Shown piece by piece: positions 9,560 to 34,371 of a stretch of DNA of 44,503 nucleotides. Positions within the stretch are counted from its first letter, which is position 1. Each line of letters starts with the position of its first letter. This DNA comes from a virus. Position numbers and translations under genes: made by a program. The DNA is taken from the IMG/VR virus record IMGVR_UViG_3300044638_003582, positions 1 to 44,503 of that record. One strand, written 5' to 3'. The notes beneath the pieces were generated by a model that ran no database searches, had not been told where the DNA came from, and saw only the letters and a program-made list of their open reading frames with translations.

Positions 9560-12500
9560 TCAGCGTTCGTACTGGTTTATCGGTTTCCAATAGAATCCGA
9601 AGTATTCCATTTGGAACGAACCAGAACCTTCCACATTAAACGTATGCCGTTCACCACGGTTTTGGCTAGGAGAACTTGTCTGCCCAGCTGACTCCGTAGG
9701 TATTGCCATGATTTCTCCAGTCACGCTATAGTTAAACCTAGGGGAAGCAGGACGAGAGTCAACGTAGCCATACTGCCACGCTGTATCGGTTGTTGCAGTC
9801 TCACCCATAGGGCTTGTATGAACTATCCCACGTAGGATTACTGGATCGTCAGAGGAAGCTATGTAAGCGAATACTTTACGGATGCGCTTGAGTACAGTCT
9901 TATCTTCTGCCGTCCAATCCTTTGAGCTCCAGAACACGCGGACAAATTTTGTTACTGGTGTAATCTGGTATGTCAGTGAGATAGGATTATACGTGAACAT
10001 CAAGTAGTCGTCGTTCGGCTTATCTAGATTATTGTCAACCTTAGTCGGTGATTCAATAAACATAGAGATACGCATGAACTCCATTGATGCATCTGTTGGC
10101 AATGGAACTGGAATCAGATAGTTTCTAGTCCGAGGCGTGAGTGCTTCAGCGGAGCGCAGCTGGCCTAGGGTATTGGTATAGTACAGACGGCTGTAAACCC
10201 TTGGAGCTCTTTGAGTTGGAGCTACTGGGTAGAGCTGTTGCATCCATGTGATCGGGTCTGTGAAATATGTAGCATCATCCATGTAGCGGTACTTGGTAAC
10301 CAATCCGCTATCAATGTTGATTGCGTATGTAATTCCACGCAGCTGGCGCAATCCCTTGTTATCCGTGATAGTAATTCCAGATGTATTGCCACCTTCTGCG
10401 TCACCCTCATTGCTTGAAGTTGTCATGACTGGAAGCGTCAGGTACAGTTCCCGATATGTAGGATTCCAACCACAAGATGCATCACGGATAGCTGGGTTCA
10501 TCACACCGTTCTGTGCTGAACGTAAGCGAAGTTGCAGTTCTTCTGAGAACTTGCCATCTACCTTAGACAGAACATTGTTATCGTACTTGTAGAAACCTGC
10601 CCACGATAGGAAGTAAAGTGTATTGTTTACAGTGATAACTGTATTCGGAGCAATGCAACCTACGTTGTTTGATATTTCGTCAACACGAGAGACTGGAACC
10701 TGAGATCCCTGTACTGCCAACCTATGGATACTACGTTCCTTTAAGACAATCAAGTTGCCATAAAGCATAGCTAGTCCAGTAATCTGGTCTCCATCTCCTG
10801 CACGAACTTCCATCAGTGAAGGAAGTTTAATCTTGTTTGGCTGATATGGCTCTGACCAGCGGAGTCCTGCTGGCATGTCATCTTCATTCTGGAAGAACTG
10901 CTTGATAGGCAACCTTCCGATAGATGGAAGGTCATTGTCATAGAAGATACCTTCATCTTCTGGCTTGATTGTTCCTATCTTCTCAATCCACTGAGGACCT
11001 GTGCCCTCATCGTAGCGATTAGTAATATCAAGAATGATTGGCTGGCAGTATGAACTAGCGTGCCCACGATCTTTAGCTGGAACTGATGTGTCAAAGTAAT
11101 TCCAAAAGAAGTTCATTCTTGAACCATCGTATCCTACATCACCGCCATGGAATGCCTGAATGACTGAGTTTGGATAGTACACTACACCATTGTATTCTAC
11201 GACACCTTGAGCTACGAAGTATACGTTACCTACCGTTGCTGTGCTATTTGACTTTCTTCCAGTAAACGCTACAGTTGGCAAAGGTGCTGGTGTATTGAGC
11301 CTATATATGTTTGCTTGCTCAATAGCAGGGTCATAGGCTGAAGGCAAGCCGTACATCACAACCTTGTTATTGAGCGTGGCTCCTCGATCTATCTGCCCTG
11401 AATACGACGCCAAGGAATAAGATCGAGCTTGGTCATTGTATGCAGTAAAATAATAAAGGTATCTGTGAGTAATGTTAGTTGGGGCTGCTCCATCTACTAC
11501 AAGCCTATATGACCAAAGTCTTTCAAGTTCAGAGTTGCTGCCAACATTAAGATTCTTATGAGATGCTACAGTAGTATCCGCAGGATTAGTAGTCTCAATT
11601 TTCACTGCATTTCTTGGTGAATGTGGCTTGTACGATTCCTTGATGTTTGCGTAGAATACGCGCTCATTCAAAGGGAGGCAGAACCTAGACTTAATAGGAT
11701 TAGTAAATCCGTCATAGTCAGGAACACTATATGAATAATCGAGCTCACTACTCTTTACATCATCAAGAAACTCAATCTTAGTTGATTGTGCCCCAGTCGG
11801 AAGTCCTGTCGCCCCGTCACGAATAATGTCGATTTCTTTGACTAAGCCGTACTCATGTGGCTGCCACGCATTATCATGGCTTGCACGAGTTCGGAAGACA
11901 AGCAACTGGCGTGCACGACGTGGAATACGATTAGATGGAATAACAATCTTTACATGCGGAGCTTCAAAAAGAAGTGAAGCTGGTATGTACATGGATAGTT
12001 GTTCTGGTATTGTCAGGCGTTCTCCGACACCAGATAGAGTTACACGAAGATTTCTGAATCTAATATTTGTGTCTGGAGTTCCTAATGAACTAGAATAAAT
12101 CCAGTTAGAGTAATTATTGGTTTGAGCACCAGCGGCTAGAGCTCCATAAGAATATGTTTCCTGACTTCCTGGATTAGCATTTTGATATGCCCTAGCATTT
12201 CCTCTAACTAATTTGTCAGTATAATTCTGTGGCACTGTGTCATAAATTTTTTGTTGAAATGTCCAAGTTCCAACATCACCAAAATCGCACAGTTGTATTT
12301 GACCAGTACCAGATAGAGCTATTCTCGATATTACTTCCGCTGGTATAGATGGCTTAAGGTAAAGTAATCTATCTGACTCTTTCTTAACACCACGCACTAC
12401 GGTCATGTTACGAAATTCCCAAGGCTTATATGGAGGGAATACACCAGCATCATCATCTGGCCAGTTATTCCTTTCCACCGTCATGAGCATAGGAGTAGAT

Positions 12501-14866
12501 ACAGTAATTGATCCACCCTTAAAAGGAACTGGATTGAACCATACGCTTTGACCTTTTTTGATTACATCGTTTATTACCCATCCACGACCAGCGTTAGCAG
12601 CTGGATCACTCGTATCTATTCCAAATCTGATTGCGCCTTGGAATATGACTTGATATGCAGGGTAAAATCCAGCTGGATCATTGTTGTCATAATAAGCTGA
12701 ACCAGAATTCCTAGATACATTTTGGTACGATGTTCTAAGAACCCCATAGTTACTAAACACACTGTTATATGTATGCGATCCATTACCTTCGTTGGCGAAC
12801 AGAGGCACTCGCATTGACACTGTATTTGTTTTGTACGACTGTGTGTTTTTGTACTGCCAACGACCATTGCCTTTCTCTTCTACTTCTACTTCTGTATCAG
12901 CTAACTCTACTTGAGTCCCAGAAAGAACTGCATAATCATTGACCCAGTATGTTGTACATACGACACTTAGCTGACCTTTAGCTAAGTTAGATTCAGTAGT
13001 CCAGTTGGTTGGCCAAGAAGCTCCTGAAGTGCTTGAATACCTAGCTGAGAATGTATGGCTTGCATCAAACAGTATAGTCTTCAACTTTACAAAGTTCTGT
13101 CCGTATGGTGTCAGCGCCCCTAAAGAATCAAATATTGAAACTCCTTGCATCCTTGGCGATGTATTGACAAAGTATGTATTTGATAAAGTTAAACTTGTCT
13201 GTTCTGCTTCATTGAATGAAGAGGTTCCGAATGGTCTCTTGTAAGAGCCGAGAGATGTTGTTATGTCAGAATCTTTAATGCCGCTGAATAACATATCTGG
13301 TACAATCAATTCAGACGATGGAGCGCTATATTCTCCATTGCCCATATACCAGACAAATCTATATCTCCACACACCAAGAGGAACTTCCTGTTCTACTCCT
13401 GTGTGAGTCTTCAACTTAATAAGTTTTGTTCCTGCACTTGATGTCTTATTCCATACACGGTCAAGCGACGTCAATAAGTATCTGCCAGATACCGTACCTG
13501 ATACTGGGTAGTATGTAATCTTCTGATCTTTCCAAAGGTATACGTCAGAAGAGACTTGGTCGTCTTCTTTAATATCTGGATTCTTAAGTGTCAGAGAAGC
13601 GAATAAGTCGTTGTATTCATCTGCTTCGGAATTATTTGTAAATATGAAATTTGTTTTGTCATTGATGGTTATGCCTGAAATTAGGGCTTCACCATAACCG
13701 CTGACTTTAATAAACTCACTGGTAATAAAAGCCGATGTTTCTCTAGGTGTCACCCATGCGCGAACTTCGTTCTGGAATTTCTTTACTTGTGGACTCTCAT
13801 CATAGTTTGCATAGTATGGAGTATAGTTATCCTGGCTTGCCTCAAGTCTATTCCTTTGCAAATAAAACTTATACAAAGCCATTGGAGCTTCAACTCCCTT
13901 CTCATTGAAGTTGAGTCCTCCGATACCAAAGTCTATGACTACATCATCGACGTCGAACTTAGCTAAGGTATTCTCGCGCAAAGAGAACCTATGCTTCTTT
14001 ACTTCATTGTACTCTGATTCTGAGTATTCATCAACTAGATACATGTCTCCATTAGTCATATCAGATATAACTATGGAATCTCTGTACTGCTGCATAGAAA
14101 CATAATGCTCAATCCAGTTAAGATCTTTTGGTATGTTTCCATCAGAGAATGTGTTGTGCACACCTAGCCAACGAGAAGGAGCGTAGATTTGCAGCTTGCT
14201 TGGCTTGTCATCAGCGCGGTTGATTGTACGCGCACCAATTGTAGGGTACAATGTAGGGAGAGTATTGTCCCTGACTTCATAGCCTAGTGTTGAATCGAGG
14301 ACATTTCCATTCGGTGCAAATGCAAACTGGTCCTTGAAATTTGTAGGTCCAGTTAGAGGAACCAGCAAGTATGCTGCCTTATACCGCCATGTGTACCGAT
14401 TGATTGTATCATCTGGGAATCCAGATACTAACTTAGCACTCTCGTTATTTGCATCTGTTGTAGGAGTAGATGACGCTGGCTTCTTTGCTGGTATCCGTAA
14501 TGCATACACCATAAACCTATCTGTATGCTTTGCTCCTGCTATGCTTGGAGTTAACGCATTAAGCGTAGCATCATCGTATGGAGCCCATGATGTAGTTCCT
14601 GACCCTACACCCCACGGTTTTTCAATGACATATTCAGTAAGACCCATTGTGCCAATTGACCATAGCTGACCCTTAATGTCAGCTATATTCAAATTGCGTT
14701 CCATTAAGATAGACTTACCAGCAACACCATTACGGTTAACTAGGTAGCCCAGCTTTTCAAAGCGAAGATTCTCAATGTCTGATGCTTCTTCATTCTTAAT
14801 TAGTTCTGGACGTAAGTTGTTGTCTAGTCCTAAAAAAGAATTAACGTTGGTCTTTTGGTATTCCAT
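9560..14866 (-). CDS. Tail nozzle/muzzle (stabilisation-type) protein
   Basis: Encodes 1768 residues. The start is close to families of tail stabilisation or nozzle proteins: an N-terminal NSFLGLDNNLRPELIKNEEA segment followed by SDIENLRFEKLGYLVNRNG, as in P22 gp10-like and T7 gp12-like proteins where the chain begins with a list-like beta-propeller strand. Near residues 1361-1385 there is GLAMLYGNLIVLKERSIHRL and at about 1397-1436 a VGCIAPNTVI...LYFLSWAGFYKYD stretch, both typical propeller blades of this family. The protein is two to four times longer than the P22 and T7 proteins and in the size class of crAss-like muzzle proteins. Its ATG shares a TAATG junction with the upstream ring-type gene, so the two are translationally coupled. 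Expected place: the distal tip of a short tail. Family call is good; detail of fold is inference. Confidence 0.82.
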   Translation of the reverse strand: MEYQKTNVNSFLGLDNNLRPELIKNEEASDIENLRFEKLGYLVNRNGVAGKSILMERNLNIADIKGQLWSIGTMGLTEYVIEKPWGVGSGTTSWAPYDDATLNALTPSIAGAKHTDRFMVYALRIPAKKPASSTPTTDANNESAKLVSGFPDDTINRYTWRYKAAYLLVPLTGPTNFKDQFAFAPNGNVLDSTLGYEVRDNTLPTLYPTIGARTINRADDKPSKLQIYAPSRWLGVHNTFSDGNIPKDLNWIEHYVSMQQYRDSIVISDMTNGDMYLVDEYSESEYNEVKKHRFSLRENTLAKFDVDDVVIDFGIGGLNFNEKGVEAPMALYKFYLQRNRLEASQDNYTPYYANYDESPQVKKFQNEVRAWVTPRETSAFITSEFIKVSGYGEALISGITINDKTNFIFTNNSEADEYNDLFASLTLKNPDIKEDDQVSSDVYLWKDQKITYYPVSGTVSGRYLLTSLDRVWNKTSSAGTKLIKLKTHTGVEQEVPLGVWRYRFVWYMGNGEYSAPSSELIVPDMLFSGIKDSDITTSLGSYKRPFGTSSFNEAEQTSLTLSNTYFVNTSPRMQGVSIFDSLGALTPYGQNFVKLKTILFDASHTFSARYSSTSGASWPTNWTTESNLAKGQLSVVCTTYWVNDYAVLSGTQVELADTEVEVEEKGNGRWQYKNTQSYKTNTVSMRVPLFANEGNGSHTYNSVFSNYGVLRTSYQNVSRNSGSAYYDNNDPAGFYPAYQVIFQGAIRFGIDTSDPAANAGRGWVINDVIKKGQSVWFNPVPFKGGSITVSTPMLMTVERNNWPDDDAGVFPPYKPWEFRNMTVVRGVKKESDRLLYLKPSIPAEVISRIALSGTGQIQLCDFGDVGTWTFQQKIYDTVPQNYTDKLVRGNARAYQNANPGSQETYSYGALAAGAQTNNYSNWIYSSSLGTPDTNIRFRNLRVTLSGVGERLTIPEQLSMYIPASLLFEAPHVKIVIPSNRIPRRARQLLVFRTRASHDNAWQPHEYGLVKEIDIIRDGATGLPTGAQSTKIEFLDDVKSSELDYSYSVPDYDGFTNPIKSRFCLPLNERVFYANIKESYKPHSPRNAVKIETTNPADTTVASHKNLNVGSNSELERLWSYRLVVDGAAPTNITHRYLYYFTAYNDQARSYSLASYSGQIDRGATLNNKVVMYGLPSAYDPAIEQANIYRLNTPAPLPTVAFTGRKSNSTATVGNVYFVAQGVVEYNGVVYYPNSVIQAFHGGDVGYDGSRMNFFWNYFDTSVPAKDRGHASSYCQPIILDITNRYDEGTGPQWIEKIGTIKPEDEGIFYDNDLPSIGRLPIKQFFQNEDDMPAGLRWSEPYQPNKIKLPSLMEVRAGDGDQITGLAMLYGNLIVLKERSIHRLAVQGSQVPVSRVDEISNNVGCIAPNTVITVNNTLYFLSWAGFYKYDNNVLSKVDGKFSEELQLRLRSAQNGVMNPAIRDASCGWNPTYRELYLTLPVMTTSSNEGDAEGGNTSGITITDNKGLRQLRGITYAINIDSGLVTKYRYMDDATYFTDPITWMQQLYPVAPTQRAPRVYSRLYYTNTLGQLRSAEALTPRTRNYLIPVPLPTDASMEFMRISMFIESPTKVDNNLDKPNDDYLMFTYNPISLTYQITPVTKFVRVFWSSKDWTAEDKTVLKRIRKVFAYIASSDDPVILRGIVHTSPMGETATTDTAWQYGYVDSRPASPRFNYSVTGEIMAIPTESAGQTSSPSQNRGERHTFNVEGSGSFQMEYFGFYWKPINQYER

Positions 14867-15912
14867 TAGTTGCTATATGGGCTAATGTTGTACGGAGATG
14901 AAAGTTCGTGTGATAGGACTGGCTTGAGCATAATTGCCTGTTCGACATACTGACGGAACTCTTGGTCGTACTGCTGCCACAGTGGTTGCTGTCCAGAAAG
15001 AACATTCTGTGAGCGCAAGTACTGTCCTGCTGCGTATGATACGAATGCAGGAGCCCACTTAGTCAGCTGTAGCGGTGGAGTCAATGTAGCAAAGTTAGCT
15101 TCAAAGGCCGCCTCGCTTGCCCACCATGCTGTCCACTGCGGAGATACAGATGAGTAGATGTCATATTGAGGCTTGTACTTGATTGTAAACCAAGCATCAT
15201 TAGTCAGCGTTACTGGCTGCCATACAATCCCAGGTGTATTGGGCGTGGTAATAGCTGTGTTAACCAGTATCACCGTTCCTACTGGAACAGCTGCTAGGTT
15301 TGTTGGATTAGGTACTGGCGCTACAATAGTATAGTTTCCAGTATACGGTGCTGCATTTAGTGCAGGGGTCCCTGCTGATACACGATAGTAAGAACCTGAT
15401 GCCAAGATATTAGTACCGTTGGCAGGAACTGTAGTAGAAAGAGAAGCTCCAGTAGATGGATAGCGGAACATCTGGTCTGCAAATACAGTGCAGATGCGAG
15501 CCATGCCTCGATCTGCATTAAGCTCCCATCGCTCGTCCATGACAGTTGGTCTAGTGCGCACACGGGAAAAGTGTGCTGGATTCTCGTTAAACCCAATAGG
15601 TCCTGCGGATCTACGCTCAATGATGTCGTTGTACTGCTGGTACGATACTGGCAGCATGACGTATCCGTTACTATCTAGAACTTCAATGATTTCCAGTATG
15701 TCATTACTTACTGGATACGGGATTGTTGTCTGTGTCAAATCTCCAGCTGTAACGACAACCTTGGTATCTTCGGCTATGGCTGTCAATCGTTGGAACTCAG
15801 ACACTGCACGGGTTAAATACCTCATGCCTTGCTGTGGAGTCATCTTTAGCTCTTCTTGATAAAGAGCTAACTCCTGTAACAAATCATCGTATAGTTCTTT
15901 CCAAGTAGTCAT
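14866..15912 (-). CDS. Head-tail adaptor/ring-type protein with inserted module
   Basis: Encodes 348 residues. The N-terminal helices (WKELYDDLLQELALYQEELK, then QGMRYLTRAVSEFQRLTAI) and a following strand set resemble the small connector proteins of podoviruses and crAss-like ring proteins. Residues about 166-233 form a separate Thr/Ala/Pro-rich module that is clearly related to residues 84-150 of the product of 19858-20457; the adaptor-like chain resumes afterwards (WFTIKYKPQYDIY...YAAGQYLRSQNV). It is the last of five consecutive short genes between the head genes and the nozzle. Stop and start junctions on both sides are TAATG overlaps, so expression is coupled to neighbours. Role as a ring that joins portal and nozzle is inferred from order and helical pattern, not from a recognised family. 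Confidence 0.72.
   Translation of the reverse strand: MTTWKELYDDLLQELALYQEELKMTPQQGMRYLTRAVSEFQRLTAIAEDTKVVVTAGDLTQTTIPYPVSNDILEIIEVLDSNGYVMLPVSYQQYNDIIERRSAGPIGFNENPAHFSRVRTRPTVMDERWELNADRGMARICTVFADQMFRYPSTGASLSTTVPANGTNILASGSYYRVSAGTPALNAAPYTGNYTIVAPVPNPTNLAAVPVGTVILVNTAITTPNTPGIVWQPVTLTNDAWFTIKYKPQYDIYSSVSPQWTAWWASEAAFEANFATLTPPLQLTKWAPAFVSYAAGQYLRSQNVLSGQQPLWQQYDQEFRQYVEQAIMLKPVLSHELSSPYNISPYSN
15214..15417 (-). repeat. Shared 65-residue module, copy in ring-type protein
   Basis: Codes for residues about 166-233 of the 348-residue ring-type protein. It begins LASGSYYRVSAGT, continues with YTGNYTIV and ends in a VPVGTVIL strand. The second copy is at 20008-20208. By eye roughly 40 percent of aligned residues are identical. 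Confidence 0.75.
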
Positions 15913-16724
15913 TAGACCCTCACAGCACTTGCGTCAATAATAGGTACGTTAGGTATAAGAGATTCACGAGCTTCAACGAGAAGCCTGCTTCGATCAATTT
16001 CAGCTTCATACTGACGTTGCAGTGAAGCAACCATCATTTCAATATCTTGCCGTATCAGCGCATTAGATGTAGGCAAACCCAGTGTTTCCATTATCTTCAA
16101 ACAAGATATTAGAACTACCAGCTCTTCTAAGTCATAGCCAATACGCACTTCAGGATCAGATACTCCCTGTGGATTTTCAATCTGCAACCATGGAAGTTTA
16201 GCTAGATACCATATCTCAACCTTGTTAGCAGCTAAGGCATCAGTACCAATACTCACAAGTAGCCTAACTTGCAATGTATCTGTAAACTTTTCAATGCAAT
16301 AGATAGGATTTCGTGGAGATGGCTTAGAGAATGATTTAGTCAGGACGGTATACAAGTCTCGTTTAGATACTGGGCGAGCTGACCACCAGTTATCTTCTGT
16401 AAGCACTGACACTGTTACGTCGGTTATGAAATCTTCTGGCAGGTTCAGAACAAACACCTGATTAACAAGCGTTCTAGCTGCATTTGTATTCGTATCGTAC
16501 TCAAACATCCTAGCAGAGTCAACCCAAGACACAGCTGGTATATCGGTAGGAACATGAATCCTAGCATATCTTTCTGGTATTGCCTGAAGTGTAGCCATTT
16601 GAACATCAAATCTTGCTTGATTGATAATGTTCTCTAGCATACCAACATCAACAGACTTAGCTACATCATAACGATTTAGTCTGTGCATGACCTCAGTGGC
16701 GTATGTCTGCATTGTATATGGCAT
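15912..16724 (-). CDS. Head-tail adaptor/ring-type protein
   Basis: Encodes 270 residues. The start, a Tyr/Met-rich helix (YATEVMHRLNRYDVAK) followed by VDVGMLENIINQARFDVQMA, looks like the N-terminal helix pair of podoviral connector proteins, which dock around the portal. A central beta region carries LPEDFITDVTVSVL, and the C-terminal third is helical with heptad-like spacing (LEELVVLISCLKIMETLGL...MVASLQRQYEAEIDRSRLL). TAATG junctions join it to both neighbours, so it belongs to one translational unit with them. I do not recognise a specific family. Order (capsid genes, then five short proteins, then nozzle) is the main support for a ring or adaptor role. Confidence 0.65.
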   Translation of the reverse strand: MPYTMQTYATEVMHRLNRYDVAKSVDVGMLENIINQARFDVQMATLQAIPERYARIHVPTDIPAVSWVDSARMFEYDTNTNAARTLVNQVFVLNLPEDFITDVTVSVLTEDNWWSARPVSKRDLYTVLTKSFSKPSPRNPIYCIEKFTDTLQVRLLVSIGTDALAANKVEIWYLAKLPWLQIENPQGVSDPEVRIGYDLEELVVLISCLKIMETLGLPTSNALIRQDIEMMVASLQRQYEAEIDRSRLLVEARESLIPNVPIIDASAVRV

Positions 16725-17485
16725 TAGAGCAGACCTCCTGGAGTTTGCGGCTTAGTCCTAAGTATGGCTGGTTCAGGATTAGATATAGCTTGAGCGTTTA
16801 CAGCTACTGCCTGAGATGCCGCAATCTGGCTAACTTGATATTGATAGACCTTCTGAGCGACTTCCTGCGCAGCCGTAACAATTCTTTGAGGATCAGCAAC
16901 ATCATCTAGGAATCTACTAACAGCCATGTCAATCAACAAACCTTCAAGTTCCACAGGAACTCTTACAGGGCTGTTGTACGTACCCATGCCTACATCTCCA
17001 AAGGATGCGACATAATCCAATTGACCTACAAGATTGTTAGGATAAATCCATATCGCTAGATTATTTGCCGCCCAATTAACACTGTCTACAGAGTTCGCCC
17101 ATACCATATAAACACCAGTCTTAACCCATCCTTTAGTAAAACTAATTGGACGCGAGGTGTTAGTCAAAGAACGCCATTCGCGAGGGTCAGCCATACGAGC
17201 TTCATATCGAACACCTAAAGCTGGGTCAGCTCCTGGTAGGGCTGTTGTTAGTCGGATTGGACGTATGTAGTTCTGTGGCAAACTCTGCAAATGAGTTACG
17301 CTTATACTAGCTTGATAAGACCATTCTTTGTATGCGTTCGTTCTATTGAATAAGTCACGACGAGCATCTCGCACATACTGAGCCAGCGTCTGCCAGTCTG
17401 AATTGTATGGCGTCATGTAATCAGCTATGCGCATTTCCATAGCTGTTACTGCATCACCGACACTCATTGACGATATTGCTATCAT
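16724..17485 (-). CDS. Head-tail adaptor/ring-type protein
   Basis: Encodes 253 residues. The ATG at 17485 has GGGAG about 8 bases upstream and overlaps the stop of the preceding gene as ATGA; an internal Met at residue 7 is possible but lacks this signal. Residues 10-60 are helical (VTAMEMRIADYM, LAQYVRDARRDLFNRTNAYKEW), as in connector proteins. The middle is beta-rich with several Trp and Pro (PREWRSLTNTSRPISFTKGW). The C-terminus is a helix rich in Ala, Gln and Val. No known family was recognised, but length, helix/sheet order and position match the neighbouring ring-type genes. Its stop shares a TAATG junction with the next gene. Confidence 0.65.
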   Translation of the reverse strand: MIAISSMSVGDAVTAMEMRIADYMTPYNSDWQTLAQYVRDARRDLFNRTNAYKEWSYQASISVTHLQSLPQNYIRPIRLTTALPGADPALGVRYEARMADPREWRSLTNTSRPISFTKGWVKTGVYMVWANSVDSVNWAANNLAIWIYPNNLVGQLDYVASFGDVGMGTYNSPVRVPVELEGLLIDMAVSRFLDDVADPQRIVTAAQEVAQKVYQYQVSQIAASQAVAVNAQAISNPEPAILRTKPQTPGGLL

Positions 17486-18162
17486 TGCTTTTGCTCCCTC
17501 ATAACTTTGTAGAGCGCAGCCTCAACATCAATAATACCACCAACAGCCTGACGGTCATCACCAGGGTGCTCTTTGCGATAAAGGATTTCAGCAGCCTTGT
17601 CACATATAACTGGATGCATATAAGCAGCCAGAGGCAACTGGTTCGCTGATTGTGCTGGTATGGTTGGTACTGTGATATAGCTTACCGTTACATTTTTATT
17701 TGGTGTTACAGACAAAGTATTACTTGTGGCAAAGATGTTTCCGCCAATGATTGTATACTCAGCCCTACCCAAGAATCTGTTTCTACCATTGAACTGATTG
17801 CCAGATGCAGTTTCAAATGGAGTTCTATGGCGACGACGTGAGAACACGGCAGGCGATACATACTTGTGAGGCCACTGCTTGTTAGACTGAATCTGATAGT
17901 TTGAACGAACAGACTCAATAAATAAAAATGGAACTGGCATCACACCCATCTGATTGACATCCAACGTCAGAACTGTCTCAGCCCATTGCGGCCTAAGAGC
18001 TTCCTTCTCTCCACGATACCAGCACTCACGCGCTACGATTGTGGCTGCTTCGCGTAAGGCATCTCGGAAGATTGTATCCAAGTCTGAGCTAGAACCAAAG
18101 TATTCATACTTAGGTTCATCCAGAATATTCCTTACGAAATCTATTCCATTTGTTACTGTCAT
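17482..18162 (-). CDS. Head-tail adaptor/ring-type protein
   Basis: Encodes 226 residues and overlaps both neighbours by 4 bases (ATGA). The N-terminal half has a helix (LDTIFRDALREAATIVAREC) then strands with VLTLDVNQMGVMPVPFLFIESV. The centre carries a basic loop (FSRRRHRTPFETASGNQF) and then a beta hairpin (YTIIGGNIFATSNTLSVTPN, VTVSYITVPTIP) followed by a helical end (AAYMHPVICDKAAEILYRKE). This alpha-beta-alpha order is common in phage head-completion and ring proteins: the chain ends with a helix that packs on the next ring. I infer an adaptor role from this and from gene order. No direct family match can be claimed. Confidence 0.65.
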   Translation of the reverse strand: MTVTNGIDFVRNILDEPKYEYFGSSSDLDTIFRDALREAATIVARECWYRGEKEALRPQWAETVLTLDVNQMGVMPVPFLFIESVRSNYQIQSNKQWPHKYVSPAVFSRRRHRTPFETASGNQFNGRNRFLGRAEYTIIGGNIFATSNTLSVTPNKNVTVSYITVPTIPAQSANQLPLAAYMHPVICDKAAEILYRKEHPGDDRQAVGGIIDVEAALYKVMREQKQ

Positions 18163-18782
18163 GCGTCAGTATTCTGATTAAGATTCATAGGATACATTTC
18201 AACTGGCTCAGCCAACAATGGAGTCAGAACTGCCTGCATATTCTTTAGAGCACGCTGACATTGACCCCAGTCTTTCTGTTGCAGTATTGCTAGTGCATGA
18301 TACACTATAGCGTCGTAGCAAGGGTCAATCATTTCCGTATGGTTAGAAGCTCCAGTAATTCTAGTTGGAAGTCTGTAGTAATACAGAGTACCCAAACTTT
18401 GAAATAGACCTATCTTAAATTCTACCGTGTTGTTCTTTATGTATGAGACATAACGAACTGGATCGTTGTCAAACAAACTTCCAGACCATCCGATATATAG
18501 AACAGCTGGATAATGTACTCCGTCGTTGTCAACGGTTGCCGATGCATAGAATAGATAGTTACTTGGCAGTGCTAACGGTGACTGGCCGTATATGCTAGTA
18601 AACAGTTGCGATATTAAGTGCCACTGTTTCTTCATGTAGCAATAGCGCACAAATGCAAACTGAGCAGCGTCTAGTGCCGCGTCAAGTTGTGCATCTGTCC
18701 ACATAGTTCCTTGCTTCCAGAGCGATGTTTCATCGTCAAGAACTGCTCTGAGCTTGCTTCTCATTTGGGCTGCTGTTGGCAT
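18159..18782 (-). CDS. Head-tail adaptor/ring-type protein, first of the series
   Basis: Encodes 207 residues. The N-terminus has two amphipathic helices (AAQMRSKLRAVLDDETSLWK and WTDAQLDAALDAAQFAFVRY), the usual opening of P22 gp4-like and other portal-binding adaptors, then a beta-rich middle (ALPSNYLFYASATVDNDGVH, FKIGLFQSLGTLYYYRLP) and a C-terminal helix pair (YDAIVYHALAILQQKDWGQC, ALKNMQAVLTPLLAEP). The helix-sheet-helix order is the clearest adaptor-like pattern of the five genes. Nothing better than a weak TGAG lies upstream of its ATG, and a terminator stands 47 bases before it, so it may have its own promoter or depend on readthrough. It overlaps the next gene by 4 bases. Confidence 0.7.
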   Translation of the reverse strand: MPTAAQMRSKLRAVLDDETSLWKQGTMWTDAQLDAALDAAQFAFVRYCYMKKQWHLISQLFTSIYGQSPLALPSNYLFYASATVDNDGVHYPAVLYIGWSGSLFDNDPVRYVSYIKNNTVEFKIGLFQSLGTLYYYRLPTRITGASNHTEMIDPCYDAIVYHALAILQQKDWGQCQRALKNMQAVLTPLLAEPVEMYPMNLNQNTDA

Positions 18783-18887: not shown

Positions 18888-19325
18888 TTACATCATTGGG
18901 GGCATACCACCACCCATCGGTGGTTCCATAGGTGGCATTCCGCCTCCCATTGGAGCGCCAGGCATAGGTGCAGGTGGCATTCCTCCACCCATAGCTCCGC
19001 CCATAGGAGGCATACCAATTTCACCACCTGGCCCTACTGGAACACCACCCATACCAAGACCTGCTGAGACACCAGCTGTAGCTCCTGCTGCTGCTCCCAT
19101 CATAGATGCTGACTGAGCTTGGGCGCTAAGAAGTTGCTGAATCACAGCTGCCTTCTGTTGCTCGAATAGAATCTTTTCTTCATTCAGCTTTGTTCGTTCA
19201 TTCTCAAGTTTAGCAGATTGGTATCCAAGGCGGAATGCCTTACCATCCACTGTATCCTTGGTTGCTTGGGAACTCTTCACGGGAATCCCACCCATGAACT
19301 CTTCAAAGCTAAATATGGTATTCAT
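18888..19325 (-). CDS. Small head-region protein with Gly/Met/Pro repeat tail
   Basis: Encodes 145 residues. The N-terminal 70 residues hold a short motif (FSFEEFMGGIPVKSSQA) and a charged helix (AKLENERTKLNEEKILFEQQ). From about residue 75 it becomes Ala/Gly-rich and then a repetitive tail of GGGMPP and similar units (GMPPMGGAMGGGMPPAPMPG and two further copies). Such tails are flexible, and here may be recombination-prone because the DNA repeats as well. It overlaps the preceding gene's stop as ATGA, so the pair is coupled. It lies between two intrinsic terminators together with the next gene. Structural or chaperone-like head function is possible from location only. Confidence 0.68.
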   Translation of the reverse strand: MNTIFSFEEFMGGIPVKSSQATKDTVDGKAFRLGYQSAKLENERTKLNEEKILFEQQKAAVIQQLLSAQAQSASMMGAAAGATAGVSAGLGMGGVPVGPGGEIGMPPMGGAMGGGMPPAPMPGAPMGGGMPPMEPPMGGGMPPMM

Positions 19326-19857: not shown

Positions 19858-20457
19858 TTAGCGAACGTACTTAGGGTCCTTCGTGCGAGCACTGTATGTC
19901 TTGCCATTCCATGAGCTTTCATCCTTGAATGTTGTGAGTTCATTCATGATAAATGCTTCTGAACGCAAGTTGTGCTCTTGATCGTCGAGGTAACGCGGCG
20001 TCAAAGACAAAGCCCATGTAGCATCACCAGCAGGTACTGTGATTGCAGCTGTAGCCTTAATCACAAAGCCAAGTGGGAAGTCAGCAAGATCAAGTGAAGG
20101 TACTTGTGATGGAAGTACGAGTGTGTACTTACCAGTATAGTTAGCTCCTGTAAGATCGGCTGTTCCGCTAAGCAGTGTGTAGTAGCTACCTGATGCAAGT
20201 GTTCCTGCTGCTACGATAGGAGGTGCTTGGAAAAAGATTTCATCCAAGCCAACCTTGGCAAGATCAGTTGCTCCAGCAGGGTAAAGCGTCTGCATCTTGG
20301 AATCAAGGTCTGTTCCTGCGAGATCTGGAACGATTTCGTTTCCAGCGCCAGTTCCTGTGGGCGTGCCAATTTGAAGCACGCCATTCTTAAACTGATACTT
20401 GATCTTCCCACTGGCTGCGAGAAGGGTCAAGCTGTCATCAATAGCGATATAACGCAT
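19858..20457 (-). CDS. Head-surface/decoration candidate with shared module
   Basis: Encodes 199 residues directly after the major capsid gene, 28 bases apart, with AAAGGA upstream. Residues 1-80 are a small beta-rich region (MRYIAIDDSLTLLAASGKIK; IGTPTGTGAGNEIVPDLAGT). Residues 84-150 form a module (LASGSYYTLLSGT, YTGKYTLVLPS, FPLGFVIKATAAI) that is repeated inside the ring-type protein of 14866-15912. The end is charged and Tyr-rich. It is followed by a strong terminator. A gene of this size right behind the capsid gene usually codes for a decoration, head-fibre or cement protein; this is inference from position. The module could be a surface-exposed domain that binds the capsid or a host polymer. 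Confidence 0.68.
   Translation of the reverse strand: MRYIAIDDSLTLLAASGKIKYQFKNGVLQIGTPTGTGAGNEIVPDLAGTDLDSKMQTLYPAGATDLAKVGLDEIFFQAPPIVAAGTLASGSYYTLLSGTADLTGANYTGKYTLVLPSQVPSLDLADFPLGFVIKATAAITVPAGDATWALSLTPRYLDDQEHNLRSEAFIMNELTTFKDESSWNGKTYSARTKDPKYVR
20008..20208 (-). repeat. Shared 65-residue module, copy in head-surface candidate
   Basis: Residues 84-150 of the 199-residue protein, starting LASGSYYTLLSGT and including YTGKYTLVLP and FPLGFVIK. The partner copy is at 15214-15417. Confidence 0.75.
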
Positions 20458-20485: not shown

Positions 20486-21775
20486 TTAGGCAGTACGGAG
20501 AAGGGCGTGATGCTCTTCAAGGTGGAAGGACAGCGTGCCAGACCATTCAACCATGAGCTTCTTGTCGCGCTCGTTGTTGTTCGAGTATTCGCGTACATCG
20601 TAGTTCTTTGCTACGTGGTAGTCAATTTGCTCTGGATCAATAACAGCGCACCAGTGTGACTGAGGCGTACCAAGACGGAACGTCTCGTTGCGGATAAGAT
20701 CAAGCGTATAGCCCATCCACTCATACGTCGTGATGTTGAGACCTGGTGTCTGCTTAGAAACATTGAGGTCAGAACGACGATATTCGCGGAATGCCTTGTT
20801 GAAGTTATTTAGGAAGTCTGCGCCTACGAAAGCCCACTTACGCTTAGCACCTTGGTGAAGGAATGCTTGCTTGTACATGAACTCGCTAACGAGATTCTCG
20901 AAATCAAGACCAGCTTGAGCTGGGTTGTAAACTGTTACGTTCGTGCGGATAGCATTGAGAACGCCACGCATGTGGTGCGTAGGACGACCATTCTGATCGT
21001 AGTTTACAGCACGCTCGGAATACCAGCATGTGAGGTTGATTTGCTTCTTGAACTCTTCAATAACTTCACGCTTTTGGAAGTCGAAGTCCTTCATTGAACC
21101 GTATGTCTGAACATACTCAAGTTCATCTTCCGTAACTTCAAGAACAGCTTCCTTGTGCTCGACAAAGTTATAGTCGAATACAACGTCACGCTGATAGCCT
21201 GAAGCCTCGATTGGCTGTGATTCCCAGATTGTACGGCCAAGATGCCAGAAATCTGATGTCGTTGGGGCTACAAATGCAACTGGCTCAACAACGCGAACAA
21301 CGATTGTTCCTGCTGCTGTACGTGTTTGCGAAGCACCGTTGTTTACAAGTGCTGTCGAAAGCTGCATTTCTGTTCCATTGATACGGTAAGCCGCATCTGG
21401 AGTCGTGACAACTTCAACTGTCTGACCTGTAGCAACGATATAGAGCTTATCCTGTGGCTGGTAAAGCATACCAGTAACGCCAGGGCGTGACGATTGAGCA
21501 ACGCTCAAACGACCAAAGCGCGTTTCATTATTGCCTACAAGACCAGCTGTAGCTGCTGTGATTTGATCCAAGAAGTCTGTAGCATAGTACTTACGTACTT
21601 GTACCTTCTTGGTCTTAGGACGGCCTGCTGCTGAGATTTTCTCCATCAGCGTAATGATTGGCGTAGCCTCTGGGTAGAGGGTGCGAATCTGTTCGCTGAC
21701 ATCAGGCTTTTGATTCTGTGGGTTGACCGTTTGGGTGGTCCGAATCCCACGTCGGGTGCTGTTAAGATATGCCAT
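20486..21775 (-). CDS. Major capsid protein (HK97-fold type, SU10/DUF5309-like)
   Basis: Encodes 429 residues. AAGGAG lies 8 bases before the ATG at 21775, the best ribosome binding site among the head genes, fitting high expression. The chain begins with a flexible arm (NSTRRGIRTTQTVNPQNQKP) then TPIITLMEKISAAGRPKTKK, which looks like the N-arm and E-loop part of an HK97-fold capsid protein. Central helices (AVLEVTEDELEYVQTYGS, VIEEFKKQINLTCWYSERAV) and the C-terminal third, with AFVGADFLNNFNKAF, MGYTLDLIRNETFRLG and DPEQIDYHV, follow the pattern of the SU10/DUF5309 capsid family. It follows the scaffold-like gene. The family assignment is from pattern recognition, not a search. Expected role: hexons and pentons of the shell. 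Confidence 0.85.
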   Translation of the reverse strand: MAYLNSTRRGIRTTQTVNPQNQKPDVSEQIRTLYPEATPIITLMEKISAAGRPKTKKVQVRKYYATDFLDQITAATAGLVGNNETRFGRLSVAQSSRPGVTGMLYQPQDKLYIVATGQTVEVVTTPDAAYRINGTEMQLSTALVNNGASQTRTAAGTIVVRVVEPVAFVAPTTSDFWHLGRTIWESQPIEASGYQRDVVFDYNFVEHKEAVLEVTEDELEYVQTYGSMKDFDFQKREVIEEFKKQINLTCWYSERAVNYDQNGRPTHHMRGVLNAIRTNVTVYNPAQAGLDFENLVSEFMYKQAFLHQGAKRKWAFVGADFLNNFNKAFREYRRSDLNVSKQTPGLNITTYEWMGYTLDLIRNETFRLGTPQSHWCAVIDPEQIDYHVAKNYDVREYSNNNERDKKLMVEWSGTLSFHLEEHHALLRTA

Positions 21776-26847: not shown

Positions 26848-27735
26848 ATGGCATTTAATTGGAATCTCGTAACGCAAGGACTTGGTGCGGCGGCATCAAT
26901 GATTCCAGGCATTGGTGCATTCGGTGGACTGATTACAGGTGGATTGCAAGGGATAAGTGATCCATTTAGCATGAGCGACGGTGGAGGAAGTTCAGTTCAG
27001 AATGCTTTGGATAATGCAGCGAAAGCACAGCAAGCCGCATCATTTACATCTACAGGAGCTGAAGGCGCAGCTGCTAACCGAGAATCTGCTGATGCTGCTC
27101 GAAAGTTTATAGGTCAGCAAACCGCAGAGGGAAGACTTGCATCACAGCAACAGCAAGCACTTGGTTCCGCTGCATTAGGTGGCGCTCAGGCTACAACAGA
27201 TTTAGCACGTAGCGCAGCCATGATGAACCTTGGCAACCAGAACCGCAATCTCATGCAACAGGCTGCAGCCGCTGGTGGAAGTCCAGCAGCACTAGCTGGA
27301 ATAGCTTCAAACCTTGGGCAAGCCAACACTCAGACTCTGAACTCATTGGCACAACAGGGAGCGGCCGCTCAGCAAGCAGGATTATCTCAAGCTGGTCAAG
27401 CATTCGCAGCGTCTGAGCAAGTACGAAATGCAGATTTAGCTCAGCAATTCGCCAACTTCCAGCCGTATGCTTTGCAGAAGTTTGGTGGAACAAATGTTGG
27501 CGCAATCGGTGGATTCCAACAGACACAAAATGCAATACAGGCTTCTGAAGACCCACTTGCACTTCTCAAGCAGATGGGTGGCAAGGGAGCTAACTTGCTA
27601 CAGGATCAACCTTACAGTGAAGCTACAATCAACGATATGATTCAAAAAGCGCTTGGTCGTTTTGGTGCACCGCAAGCACCTTATGCTGGACCATTAAGCC
27701 CTACAGATACATTTGGTAGAAGGAAGACTTCATAA
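26848..27735 (+). CDS. Ala/Gln-rich internal/ejection protein (candidate)
   Basis: Encodes 295 residues on the plus strand, against the direction of its neighbours. Residues 8-36 form a Gly/Ala hydrophobic segment (VTQGLGAAASMIPGIGAFGG) with glycine-zipper spacing, as in membrane-inserting ejection proteins of P22-like phages (gp7, gp16, gp20 type). The rest is Ala/Gln-rich helix (QQTAEGRLASQQQQALGSAA, NSLAQQGAAAQQAGLSQAGQ). It ends with a Pro-rich tail (APQAPYAGPLSPTDTF). Composition and position next to packaging genes support a protein stored in the head and ejected with the DNA, but no family is identified by sequence. The ribosome binding site is weak (A-rich leader). Confidence 0.62.
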   Translation: MAFNWNLVTQGLGAAASMIPGIGAFGGLITGGLQGISDPFSMSDGGGSSVQNALDNAAKAQQAASFTSTGAEGAAANRESADAARKFIGQQTAEGRLASQQQQALGSAALGGAQATTDLARSAAMMNLGNQNRNLMQQAAAAGGSPAALAGIASNLGQANTQTLNSLAQQGAAAQQAGLSQAGQAFAASEQVRNADLAQQFANFQPYALQKFGGTNVGAIGGFQQTQNAIQASEDPLALLKQMGGKGANLLQDQPYSEATINDMIQKALGRFGAPQAPYAGPLSPTDTFGRRKTS

Positions 27736-27736
27736 T

Positions 27737-28261
27737 ATGGCACAGTACATCCAACACCCAGCGCTTATTGGCGCACAAATGGCTGGCGACCTTACTAAGC
27801 AACGAATGAACTTAGTAGGTCAGGGAGTAACACAAGCAGTAGATGCGCTTAATCGTCAGGCTGCCGCTGATGCTGCGGCTACTACCAAGATGATGGAGTA
27901 TCAGTCTTTGATGAGAGCTCAAAGAAATCCGATGACTGGTGCTTATGAGTTAGGAGCCGCACTTCCATCAAAGGATTGGATGAATGCATTCAATCAAATG
28001 ATTTTTGAACGTCAAGCAGCGCGTGGTGGATACGATCCGAAGTTTGAACCTGGTAAACCAGGATGGTATACTGGAGCACCGATAGTTACTCCTGCAGCAG
28101 AAGTACCTCCAGTAGCTGGAACTTATCCTAAAGAATATGATCCAACAATTCTAAACGTACCTAGCATTCGACCTAAGCAGGCTGCATACCCAGTCGCTGC
28201 TGATAGATCGTTAGCAAGAGACATCCTTAATCTTGATATTTTTGGTATGCGAAATCCATGA
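27737..28261 (+). CDS. Probable small internal/ejection protein
   Basis: Encodes 174 residues. The ATG at 27737 is chosen over an in-frame TTG at 27713, because AAGGA lies about 11 bases upstream and the preceding gene ends at 27735. The N-terminal half is helical and Ala/Gln-rich (IQHPALIGAQMAGDLTKQRM, ALNRQAAADAAATTKMMEYQ). The C-terminal half is Pro-rich, with PGWYTGAPIVTPAAEVPPVA, and likely extended. It follows the Ala/Gln-rich gene by one base and overlaps the next small gene as ATGA. Function is inferred from composition and its place in the plus-strand cluster. Confidence 0.62.
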   Translation: MAQYIQHPALIGAQMAGDLTKQRMNLVGQGVTQAVDALNRQAAADAAATTKMMEYQSLMRAQRNPMTGAYELGAALPSKDWMNAFNQMIFERQAARGGYDPKFEPGKPGWYTGAPIVTPAAEVPPVAGTYPKEYDPTILNVPSIRPKQAAYPVAADRSLARDILNLDIFGMRNP

Positions 28262-28410
28262 GTAAGCCAAAGAAAATGGGGCTCGGTTCGGGCCCCGTTC
28301 ATATCCCTGGAAAAGCTAAGAAAACACGTCAGGGTGCATCTAAGCGCACGAAGCATAGTGCTACGCCTAGCAACAAAGCTACTAAGGCTTATCGCGGTCA
28401 GGGGCGCTAG
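28258..28410 (+). CDS. Very basic 50-residue protein
   Basis: Begins with an ATG overlapping the stop of the preceding gene (ATGA) and ends at a TAG at 28410. It encodes 50 residues with 15 Lys or Arg (MSKPKKMGLGSGPVHIPGKA, then KKTRQGASKRTKHSATPSNK). The overlap and the absence of another use for this stretch support a real gene, though it is short. It ends 29 bases inside the 3' end of the oppositely read metalloprotease gene. A DNA-binding internal virion protein that packs with the genome or is ejected with it is plausible, since its neighbours look like internal proteins. Confidence 0.55.
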   Translation: MSKPKKMGLGSGPVHIPGKAKKTRQGASKRTKHSATPSNKATKAYRGQGR

Positions 28411-28708
28411 TCTTAGGATATTTGGCTGTCTTATACAGCTGATAGTACATTTGCTCTAAACCAGCGGCTAGCTCTTCATCATCCTCTTTTCCAAGGATAT
28501 GCAATGCTGCGTGCACAAATTCATGTAGGAATGTCTGGAACATAGAGTCATCCGACATCTTCTTACCATTGACATTTCTAGCTATATGGATGATATGATC
28601 TGTGGTATAACATATACCATGTACATACTCACCTGGCTCGCCAATGCTCTTGACTAGCTTAACCTTCCAAGTGTGAGCACCTAGTTTGAATGACGTAGGG
28701 ATTCTCAT
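28382..28708 (-). CDS. Zinc metalloprotease-like protein (HExxH)
   Basis: Encodes 108 residues. Residues 62-66 read HEFVH in FLHEFVHAALHILG, the zinc-binding motif HExxH of gluzincin-type peptidases, and an acidic stretch after it (DDEEL) could give the third ligand. The N-terminal half has a beta-rich start (FKLGAHTWKVKLVKSI) and a helix. Small single-domain HExxH proteins in phages resemble ImmA/IrrE or SprT-like proteins, whose targets are repressors or DNA-linked proteins. I cannot tell which. Its start overlaps the stop of the phosphoesterase gene as ATGA. Its 3' end overlaps the plus-strand basic protein gene by 29 bases. Confidence 0.78.
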   Translation of the reverse strand: MRIPTSFKLGAHTWKVKLVKSIGEPGEYVHGICYTTDHIIHIARNVNGKKMSDDSMFQTFLHEFVHAALHILGKEDDEELAAGLEQMYYQLYKTAKYPKTSAPDRDKP

Positions 28709-29817
28709 ATCGTCTTACCATCCATAATAATTCTATTATGGAATATAAAGCTACCATCGTCTTCAACCTCTAGCTCTCCATAGCCGTGATTCCAAGCAGG
28801 ACGGCTGGCATAGTGAGGGTTAAGATCGCATAGACATCCAGTTGTATATACTTGCAGGAACTCTCCGTCTATAGGCTTACGAACTACTGAGTTGCTTGTC
28901 TTATGTACGTGACCTACGATTAGATTATCGTACGCTTTGAGGAAGTACCCACGAGCTGGGTTCACAGATCCACCACTGCCGAAGTATTCGTGACCGTGGT
29001 CGATATTCATGTTGCCAGCTTTCATCTTCGCTCGCTCGTTCACCCATTCGATGCCATACTTGTGAAGATGTAGCATCTCCTCAAGATGTATTGTACCTTG
29101 AATTTCAGATGCTTTACGCGCTATGTATGCAGCAAAGCGTTCCTCATGGTTTCCTTCTCGGTAAACGATACGTACATTGTCTCCAAAGAACTGCCTAAGA
29201 TGTTCAAGCATCTTACGGCTTACATCTAGTTCCCATGCCCAGTTACGCTTAGCTTCAATCTTTTCGTGCCGCGATAGATTGTAGACGTCCATCATATCGC
29301 CATTTAGGATGAGAGTGTCTACACCCCAATCCTTTAGATTGCTTATAGCTGTATAGTACGCACCCTTGATTTTTCCATCGCCATCTTTATACATGTCATG
29401 AAAAGGCCAGTGCGCATCGGATATGATTCCGACTTTGCCTGGCTCTATCGTGCACACGACATCAGGGCGTAGTTCGCCCATCATGGGAGTCACTTCTTCA
29501 TCCATGCCAAATACATAACCGCGAGGTTGATCTGGTAGTATAGCTGCATTGTAATCGTCAGAGACTTTTTTAAGTTGCTCGCTGGTGGATTTGCCACCTT
29601 TGACTTTGTACTCACGATTCTGTGGAGGCACAGTAGTACGGACCTTTCTAGCTATGCGCTTGAGCTTTTCTTCCCGTGCGCCAGCTACGCTGTCAAATGC
29701 GTTTTTGATTTGAGCTCCACGCGCACGACCACCAGCCTTCTTAATGTCTAGTAACCGTGCCTCGCGTTGCTCTCGTATTATCTCAAACTCTTCATCGCTA
29801 ATACGTACTCTAGGCAT
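28705..29817 (-). CDS. Calcineurin-like metallophosphoesterase
   Basis: Encodes 370 residues. The phosphoesterase motifs are all present in order: D134 and H136 (SDAH), GDMMD at 173-177, GNHE at 222-225, H274/H276 (DHGHE) and GHVH at 302-305. These bind two metal ions. The N-terminal 120 residues are basic and helical (REQREARLLDIKKAGGRARG) and do not belong to the fold. Phage members of this family are often of unknown substrate: cyclic nucleotides, DNA ends or host nucleotides have all been reported for relatives. It lies 1 base downstream of the small beta-rich gene. The start has no obvious ribosome binding site beyond the coupled stop. Confidence 0.9.
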   Translation of the reverse strand: MPRVRISDEEFEIIREQREARLLDIKKAGGRARGAQIKNAFDSVAGAREEKLKRIARKVRTTVPPQNREYKVKGGKSTSEQLKKVSDDYNAAILPDQPRGYVFGMDEEVTPMMGELRPDVVCTIEPGKVGIISDAHWPFHDMYKDGDGKIKGAYYTAISNLKDWGVDTLILNGDMMDVYNLSRHEKIEAKRNWAWELDVSRKMLEHLRQFFGDNVRIVYREGNHEERFAAYIARKASEIQGTIHLEEMLHLHKYGIEWVNERAKMKAGNMNIDHGHEYFGSGGSVNPARGYFLKAYDNLIVGHVHKTSNSVVRKPIDGEFLQVYTTGCLCDLNPHYASRPAWNHGYGELEVEDDGSFIFHNRIIMDGKTI

Positions 29818-32839: not shown

Positions 32840-34371
32840 TAGAGCCTCCTCAGCAAATAACGAAATCTCATTTGTGTTGGCTTAAGCCTACTCATAGTGG
32901 CATAAACCCTTACAGTGTTCCTGTCGTAACCTGTCACATGTGGTATGTTCCTAAACCGTACCTTACCTGTGTCCGTATCCGCAGGGCCTATAGTTTGCCC
33001 AGCCATTGTTACTGAACCAGATCTGTAATAAGTAAGCATTCCAGCGGTGTCTAAGTTTATATCTAGCAATTGAAACTCAAAGTTGTTGGGATTTCCTAAG
33101 TTCCAGTTGTGCACTATGTCTACAGCTTTTCTATATCCGTACCTATAATCTGGTTTTGTACCCGTAAGGTAATCCACATTGCTAGTGTCGAATATAAGCT
33201 CACCAAAAATAATTGTCTCTTCGGTTCCTGGGGGATATACAACAATCTCTGGATCGAGTGTTAGATCTATATCATCATTAGTTCTAGTTGCAATGATTCC
33301 GTTGGAACCCGTAAACTTAACTGTAGCACCAGACACAACAGCCTGCGTTCCTGCTGTCGCACTTGCCTCAATGTTCCAAGTGTATGAACCAGAACCTGGA
33401 GCAAACCATGTCTTTACAGTTCTATGACCAGATCCATTGTCTATGACTTCATGCCATGCTTGGCTTGTATATGTAACTGGTTTAGAATTGGTATCGTTAT
33501 CGAAATCAATAGTCGTAGTATCTGGAGCTCCAACATTATTGCCATTTTGCTGTAGCTGCAGCGGTCGATCAATGGTGAATGTATGTATACCAGGGACGAG
33601 GGTTACGGTAACCCCATTTGAACCCTGCCAGATGACAGTTCCGCCATTGTTTACTTGGTGAGTGTGGGGCCCATCTGATGCATGCCAGTGGTAACTTCCT
33701 GCTCCACCAGGTTCAGACCAACCTTTTATTCGCCTTACTCCACCCCCAAAATCTTGCACTTCAAAGAATACTTGGGATGTATGTGTCGAAGGCTTGGCAT
33801 TGCCTTCATTGAAGAAGTCTAGTCCTATTGTTCCAGCATCGCCGATTGCTATACTACGCTGGTAAACAGTCAGTGGGCGATCTATTAGTATGCCACCATT
33901 TTGAGTACTAACGACTACACCATTAGCCCCGTTAAAAGCAAGTACGGAATTATACTTAACGTCTATAGTGTTGCCACCAGCACGGGCAATCCACTTATAG
34001 TTAATTGCACTGATGGTGATCTTGCGACCTGGTTGGGCAAATACATCTATACCGTAATCGCCTATAAATTCAACCGTGTCATTGTTGTTTACTGGCTGAC
34101 TATTATAGGCCTTTGCCTTTACATTCCACTTATAGGTTGATGTAGTTTCTTTAGGCTTTTCTGGTGCTTGCTGTGCTGGCTGTGGCTGAAGGGCTATCTG
34201 TTGCGCTGCTACGTCGGCCGCCTGCTGCTCTTGGACTTGCTGGAGAGCCATCTTAAGACGACGCATCTCCTCGTTAGCCATTGAAGCACCGTCGGGAGTA
34301 GAGTAGTCACGTACATCCTGTACAGACAGATTAGTCTGCGATGGTACTATTCTGGGTCGCTTCGGCGGCAT
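32839..34371 (-). CDS. Tail fibre/adhesin-type protein with tandem modules
   Basis: Encodes 510 residues. The N-terminus (about 1-75) is a Gln-rich coiled-coil-like stretch (RRLKMALQQVQEQQAADVAA), then the chain turns into repeats of a beta-rich module. Copies: partial at 80-120, full at about 125-219 and 227-322, partial at 330-372. Conserved points are an aromatic-x-W start (YKW, YHW, YTW), NGVxV, IDRPLxx and a TTTIDFD or GLDFF strand. The C-terminal 130 residues form a separate beta-rich end (FGELIFDTSNVDYLTG). A coiled-coil head, repeated shaft modules and a tip are the usual fibre plan. Trimerisation is likely but not shown. The ATG overlaps the small upstream gene by 41 bases. Confidence 0.72.
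   Translation of the reverse strand: MPPKRPRIVPSQTNLSVQDVRDYSTPDGASMANEEMRRLKMALQQVQEQQAADVAAQQIALQPQPAQQAPEKPKETTSTYKWNVKAKAYNSQPVNNNDTVEFIGDYGIDVFAQPGRKITISAINYKWIARAGGNTIDVKYNSVLAFNGANGVVVSTQNGGILIDRPLTVYQRSIAIGDAGTIGLDFFNEGNAKPSTHTSQVFFEVQDFGGGVRRIKGWSEPGGAGSYHWHASDGPHTHQVNNGGTVIWQGSNGVTVTLVPGIHTFTIDRPLQLQQNGNNVGAPDTTTIDFDNDTNSKPVTYTSQAWHEVIDNGSGHRTVKTWFAPGSGSYTWNIEASATAGTQAVVSGATVKFTGSNGIIATRTNDDIDLTLDPEIVVYPPGTEETIIFGELIFDTSNVDYLTGTKPDYRYGYRKAVDIVHNWNLGNPNNFEFQLLDINLDTAGMLTYYRSGSVTMAGQTIGPADTDTGKVRFRNIPHVTGYDRNTVRVYATMSRLKPTQMRFRYLLRRL
33256..34134 (-). repeat. Tandem fibre modules
   Basis: About three and a half copies of a roughly 100-residue module in the 510-residue fibre protein: two full copies at residues 125-219 and 227-322, with partial copies either side. 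Shared residues include IDRPL, NGVTV or NGVVV, TTTIDFD or GLDFF, TSQ and KGW or KTW. A further copy lies in the neighbouring gene at 31352-31648. Confidence 0.72.

Follow-up and report, generated by a model that had tools for sequence, protein, structure and literature searches.

A sequence module shared by an adaptor-type ring protein and a protein encoded beside the capsid gene of an uncultured short-tailed phage

The virus record IMGVR_UViG_3300044638_003582 of IMG/VR comprises 44,503 bases, all of which were analyzed here (the window). Two of its minus-strand genes are of particular interest: one encodes a ring- or adaptor-type protein of 348 amino acids (aa), designated A, and lies just upstream of a gene for a nozzle-like protein, whereas the other encodes a 199-aa protein, designated B, and follows directly after the major capsid gene. 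An earlier note, made from the letters of the window alone, had pointed out a module of 65 residues that the two proteins appeared to have in common. By sequence comparison, this module (~65-75 residues) is homologous in A and B; it is integral to the middle of B and cleanly inserted into A. The positions of all features are given in Table 1.

When A and B were compared by BLASTP, residues 163-224 of A and 80-142 of B were identical at 30 of 63 positions (48%) with one gap (50.8 bits, E = 3e-12); the match of codons 166-233 of A to B is real and somewhat closer than the ~40 percent that the earlier note had judged by eye. The same note had named a chance-level alignment as what would refute it. 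The Smith-Waterman score of A against B (132) is far above the best of 3000 shuffles of B (62; Gumbel p ~7e-11), and the profile of the A module finds that of the B module with a probability of 97.5% and E = 6e-12, while the module profiles stay at noise level against all other domains of A, B and the other ring proteins. A search of the whole window located the module in A and B and nowhere else. The composition of the two segments is biased, which might favor a chance similarity of Ala/Thr/Gly/Pro-rich stretches, and a chimeric assembly may also be considered; however, composition-preserving shuffles stay below half of the real score and the identical arrangement recurs in four other contigs, which rules out both and leaves them a negligible probability. 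In the 17 columns that are invariant across the A and B copies, the only residues are L, G, Y, T, P, V, I and W; charged residues and histidine are lacking, and the module is therefore likely to be a structural or binding domain rather than an enzyme. At the DNA level, the two copies have no long stretch in common and their synonymous codons have diverged, so that recent copying cannot be demonstrated.

When IMG/VR was scanned with A, B, the module, the capsid protein and a neighboring ring protein, the same six contigs were recovered; with the window, the carriers of the module number seven. All four of G001-G004 have the module in both A and B: G001 and the window are nearly one phage (97-98% identity in A and B), the near-identical pair G002/G003 represents another lineage and G004 one further, which makes three lineages together with the window. 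No carrier outside this small group was found in IMG/VR, nor among 50,697 named phage genomes, in which neither full-length A and B nor the short module form of G006 (see below) had any match. In addition, 84,980 prokaryote genomes contained no match to B, and none was found in the prokaryote genomes with the capsid protein. A wide spread of the motif 'Y.V.sG.v.YNG.tY' in Bacteroidota phages was not confirmed and is not used here.

The insertion in A, which the earlier note had correctly recognized, is delimited by G005. Compared with the core of A, the orthologue in G005 (L016:10001-10801, 266 aa) shows 66% identity, and it lacks the entire segment, a clean difference by which A of the window is a net 82 aa longer. 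At the insertion point, G005 reads '...LYRYPAVSTDTSLTMRYKPHYDQFSS' and the window '...MFRYPS[module]TNDAWFTIKYKPQYDIYSS'. The more distant A orthologue of G006 (243 aa, 34%) likewise has only a short turn at this point. B retains the module in G005 (L016:5413-6024) and has a shorter form of it in G006 (L029:8598-9122), which was detected by profile with E = 9e-20 (the G006 sequence itself being part of the profile) and independently by tblastn with the whole of B (E = 8e-16). Because A lacks the module and B contains it in both G005 and G006, B may be regarded as its older home and A as the later recipient. The simplest account of these sequences is that the module has its long-standing home in B and was acquired by A in the lineage that comprises the window and G001-G004; we infer that the adaptor gene received a copy of the B module, or of one closely akin to it, once this lineage had separated from that of G005. 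What stands of the mobility proposed in the earlier note is that the module has moved or been lost, the change being polarized by two relatives without the A copy.

Two other histories have to be weighed against this account. A and B might have drawn independently on a wider pool of phage modules, so that the A copy would not derive from B. The module tree slightly favors an A copy outside all full-length B copies, and the diverged synonymous codons and the lack of a long DNA match would fit as well; nevertheless, the difference between trees is small (2.4 log units), and such a pool has no other known member in the phage genomes and IMG/VR, nor any for B in the prokaryote genomes, which makes this origin unlikely. 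An early presence of the module in A followed by loss in G005 (and G006) is compatible with the module tree too, but it would need two losses that both restored an intact hairpin, and both relatives show a short ordinary turn at the insertion point; we consider it very unlikely.

The AlphaFold2 model of A has a low mean confidence (predicted local distance difference test, pLDDT, 52) with confident helices at both ends. Helix pairs (4-18 and 26-44; 281-302 and 312-329) are predicted on either side of a beta domain, whose strands (49-54, 71-79, 85-88, 124-150 and 241-250) mostly have low pLDDT. The top 15 structural matches of this model are podovirus adaptor or tail chains with Z scores from 12.4 to 8.0, including those of GP4 (8jov_G, Z 12.4, root-mean-square deviation (rmsd) 4.0, 179 residues), SU10 (7z47_A, Z 10.9, rmsd 6.4, 187 residues) and T7 (6r21_M, Z 8.0, rmsd 6.4, 166 residues), the alignments of the last two covering the whole model. 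Matches in BFVD are likewise of adaptor type, with E down to 1.5e-5, and A is encoded in a block with P22_portal (PF16510), SU10_MCP, Terminase_3 and the nozzle-like gene. These model comparisons support the assignment of A as a putative podovirus head-to-tail adaptor or ring-type protein and back the adaptor fold suspected in the earlier note. The beta domain that the T7 and SU10 proteins have between their two helix pairs is known as the 'fiber dock'; it holds the tail fibers and is missing from adaptors of phages that lack such fibers (PMC6702177, PMC9509320); the label is applied to A by analogy with these two studies. According to the model, the module splits a beta-hairpin (strands near 136-150 and 241-250) of the equivalent domain in A and, on the same analogy, would point outward.

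The B gene directly follows the major capsid gene in the window, G005 and G006 and lies near it in the other relatives, and B is kept in all six. B had no match in Pfam, PHROGs, NCBIfam or PDB families. Its model is poor (pLDDT 47), the module being the better part, and yielded no fold match above Z 3.5 among the chains compared and none with E < 0.001 in BFVD. From gene order, B may be a capsid-associated protein; the head-surface role given to it in the earlier note agrees with its place beside the major capsid gene and its conservation in relatives, position being the sole basis for it. In SU10, gp10 is the product of a small gene with a predicted Ig (immunoglobulin)-like fold and was not seen in the virion (PMC9509320).

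The module itself had no match in Pfam (including Ig-like families), PHROGs, NCBIfam or PDB chains. Sequence searches are known to miss many domains of the Ig-like kind. The beta sandwich of such domains has seven to nine strands, and about five or six are predicted, at a pLDDT of ~45-67, in residues 85-152 of B, with structural matches all at Z <= 3.5. In the low-confidence models, strands fall at matching positions (92-98, 111-114 and 132-135 in B; 175-178, 196-200 and 214-216 in A), which lends slight support to one fold for both copies, and the module is probably a small non-catalytic beta domain. Both copies are under purifying selection (ratio of non-synonymous to synonymous substitution rates, dN/dS, 0.01-0.19 where measurable); since non-synonymous change is strongly restrained in both, both appear to be in use.

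Table 1. Features of the window discussed in the text (domain and module limits as residues of A or B)
Feature	Position	Strand	Basis
Nozzle/tail-stabilization-like protein, 1768 aa	9560..14866	-	phrog_3287 virion structural protein, E = 8e-13; local matches to 'phage stabilization protein'
Protein A, ring/adaptor-type, 348 aa	14866..15912	-	just upstream of nozzle-like gene; podovirus adaptor matches of model
A, helices 3-4, predicted adaptor helix bundle, residues 281-329	14926..15072	-	AlphaFold2, pLDDT 72-88
A, return strand of interrupted hairpin and end of beta domain, residues 237-256	15145..15204	-	model strand 241-250; joined to residue 152 in G005
A, inserted segment, residues 153-237	15202..15456	-	alignment with L016 and L017 homologues (short beta-turn there)
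A, shared module, residues 166-233	15214..15417	-	BLASTP, shuffles and profile comparison with B
A, first part of beta domain, residues 45-152 (putative 'fiber dock' counterpart)	15457..15780	-	low-pLDDT model topology; adaptor matches over residues 2-342
A, helices 1-2, predicted adaptor helix bundle, residues 4-44	15781..15903	-	AlphaFold2, pLDDT ~76-83 (residues 1-40)
Four ring-type gene candidates between B and A, 270, 253, 226 and 207 aa	15912..18782	-	neighboring pairs related
Protein B, 199 aa	19858..20457	-	directly after major capsid gene; conserved in relatives; low-confidence model
B, shared module, residues 78-152	20002..20226	-	A/B comparison; in G005 and, shorter, in G006
Major capsid protein, SU10_MCP family	20486..21775	-	PF17236, E = 1.4e-21

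Several further features of the window were observed. Together with A, the ring-type candidates form a row of five genes (207, 226, 253, 270 and 348 aa; 14866-18782, minus strand) in a genome with an SU10-type capsid and a P22-type portal. Neighboring members are related by profile (207/226, E = 1.5e-4; 253/270, E = 7e-5), and the row with its related pairs suggests a multi-ring tail barrel outside Crassvirales. In the nozzle-like protein, residues 1212-1242 (11141-11233, minus strand; 'VGNVYFVAQGVVEYNGVVYYPNSVIQAFHGG') are missing in G006 and resemble the short module form of G006 B, with which they have the pattern Y.V..G.V.YN...Y in common. Pairwise p values for a third copy of the module here were 0.003-0.07 and in the profile comparison other parts of this protein fitted equally well; the segment was not accepted as a copy and is kept as a lead. 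A 145-aa protein (18888-19325, minus strand) with a Gly/Pro/Met repeat tail (GGGMPP) is conserved in the group, its tail being variable. Beside the terminase gene lie two opposite-strand genes (26848-28261, plus strand), the first of which encodes a 295-aa protein with a glycine-rich hydrophobic start, a Gln/Ala-rich middle and no family match; it looks like a candidate pilot or ejection protein. A gene for an SprT-like protein and one for a calcineurin-like phosphoesterase (28382-29817, minus strand; weak Pfam matches) are 93% identical to those of G005, whereas the structural genes on the G005 contig are mostly 53-84% identical to the window, which points to recent exchange between lineages. 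Two adjacent large proteins of 764 and 510 aa (30545-34371, minus strand) have by eye a repeat in common ('RPLQL...G.NVG...TT.I.FD.....') and are probably fibers. A YqaJ-type exonuclease and RecT annealase pair (PF09588, PF03837; 37862-39626, minus strand) could plausibly drive recombination and gene mosaicism among these phages. An Rfam scan of the window detected no features.

With regard to function, the position of the module in A would correspond to the outward-facing dock region of the T7 and SU10 adaptors, so that the tail collar may be ringed by up to 12 displayed copies of the module, and the head would present it via B. The module could then be a patch on the outside for docking or weak adhesion; the copies in A and B would probably contact the same kind of partner, either a fiber or appendage protein or a host-surface polymer. 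This putative common partner is the least certain step, a common ligand of the two modules being possible. Our tentative preference, put at a little short of an even chance, is that the module is displayed outside with a binding role and was reused from B on the adaptor A. The more specific proposal that a capsid-associated binding domain was copied into the tail adaptor, so that head and collar offer a single partner the same patch (one host glycan, for instance, or one kind of fiber that docks at the two sites), with the insertion-free state still alive in relatives, is doubtful; if true, the module itself would be a new family.

A number of observations weigh against external display with a binding role. 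B is assigned to the virion by gene position only, and the module tree gives no sign that the A copy stems from B of its lineage (log-likelihoods -909.9, -912.3 and -912.4). Model confidence within the module is low in both proteins (pLDDT by blocks ~33-56 in A and ~45-67 in B), so that the idea of the same fold rests on sequence. Between the window and G002, the A copy is 57% identical compared with 77% for the A core, and it changes approximately twice as fast as the core at non-synonymous sites, whereas within the window group the B copy is conserved at least as well as B itself. Were the ligand shared, similar constraint on the two copies would be expected. A presence comparison of the window genes across the relatives, in which a partner co-occurring with the A module was sought, revealed no gene confined to the contigs with the A copy, and no specific partner is therefore indicated. 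With these results, and with G005 doing without the A copy, the shared binding function proposed in the earlier note, for example host-polymer binding or contact between the two proteins, is plausible at most. The module in A might instead be a structural addition that packs on neighboring subunits or the next ring and stabilizes the tail barrel, with no ligand in common with B. Its faster divergence suggests adaptation to its own surroundings, serial ring-type genes imply ring-ring interfaces, and the inserted beta-sandwich 'domain2' of the YSD1 tail tube protein acts likewise (PMC8718954); on the other hand, G005, with the closest orthologous ring that lacks the module, has the same ring and nozzle gene set, and the insertion point is the counterpart of the outward dock domain. 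Stabilization is thus rather unlikely and was given less weight than external display. It is quite unlikely that the two copies meet through direct contact between domains, the tail-ring module touching B or the part of the capsid that surrounds the tail vertex. Pairing is frequent among homologous domains and the fiber dock loops of the SU10 adaptor adjoin the capsid (PMC9509320), but the A gene adjoins the nozzle gene, A may be distant from the capsid in a stack of rings, and the B module is kept in G005 without its counterpart in A.

As a rule, comparisons over large distances are used to infer how accessory domains spread among virion proteins. In this case, the states before and after one insertion are both alive in close relatives (their cores, one with the domain and one lacking it, are 66% identical), and what the domain does to a tail ring becomes testable by a simple deletion already tolerated in nature. 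A domain without a known family is placed on two probable virion proteins, with a boundary defined for structural work, and an uncultured short-tailed phage would reuse one surface part in two places, a protein encoded beside the capsid gene and a tail ring.

Among known systems, the promiscuous Ig-like domains come closest, and the module is best read as an accessory beta domain that two virion proteins have in common through reuse. According to PMC7602432 and PMC8718954, which cite the survey of Fraser et al. 2006, approximately one-fourth of tailed phages have Ig-like domains on proteins of the head, tail tube and baseplate or on decoration proteins, with examples such as Hoc, pb10, N4 gp17, the C-terminal domain of lambda gpV and T5 pb6. 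Like them, the module would be a small beta domain on head and tail proteins that is dispensable in some contexts and presumed to function in display or weak adhesion; unlike them, it has no match to Pfam Ig-like families or PDB chains, and both copies are in one genome, one of them within an adaptor beta-hairpin rather than at a terminus. As its fold is not established, the module is not assigned to the Ig-like group. A resembles the fiber-dock adaptors (T7 gp11, SU10 gp11, GP4 and N4), which are its best structural matches, in its predicted helix-beta-helix layout, but differs by the extra 82-residue domain in the beta domain and by identities of only ~6-13%. Rings R1-R4 of phi-crAss001 (PMC10172136) offer a parallel in several ring-type genes per genome and a related fold (7qoj_E, Z 7.5, rmsd 5.4, 175 residues), whereas in the window the major capsid protein is SU10-type, the portal is P22-type and a crAss001-like barrel is at most suggested by the row of ring-type genes. 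'Domain2' of YSD1 is also a beta domain inserted in a ring-forming tail protein, although this is a siphovirus tube protein and the passage on it in PMC8718954 describes no copy on a head protein. Compared with all of these, the module is unusual in its place inside an adaptor hairpin and in the survival of the module-free state in close relatives.
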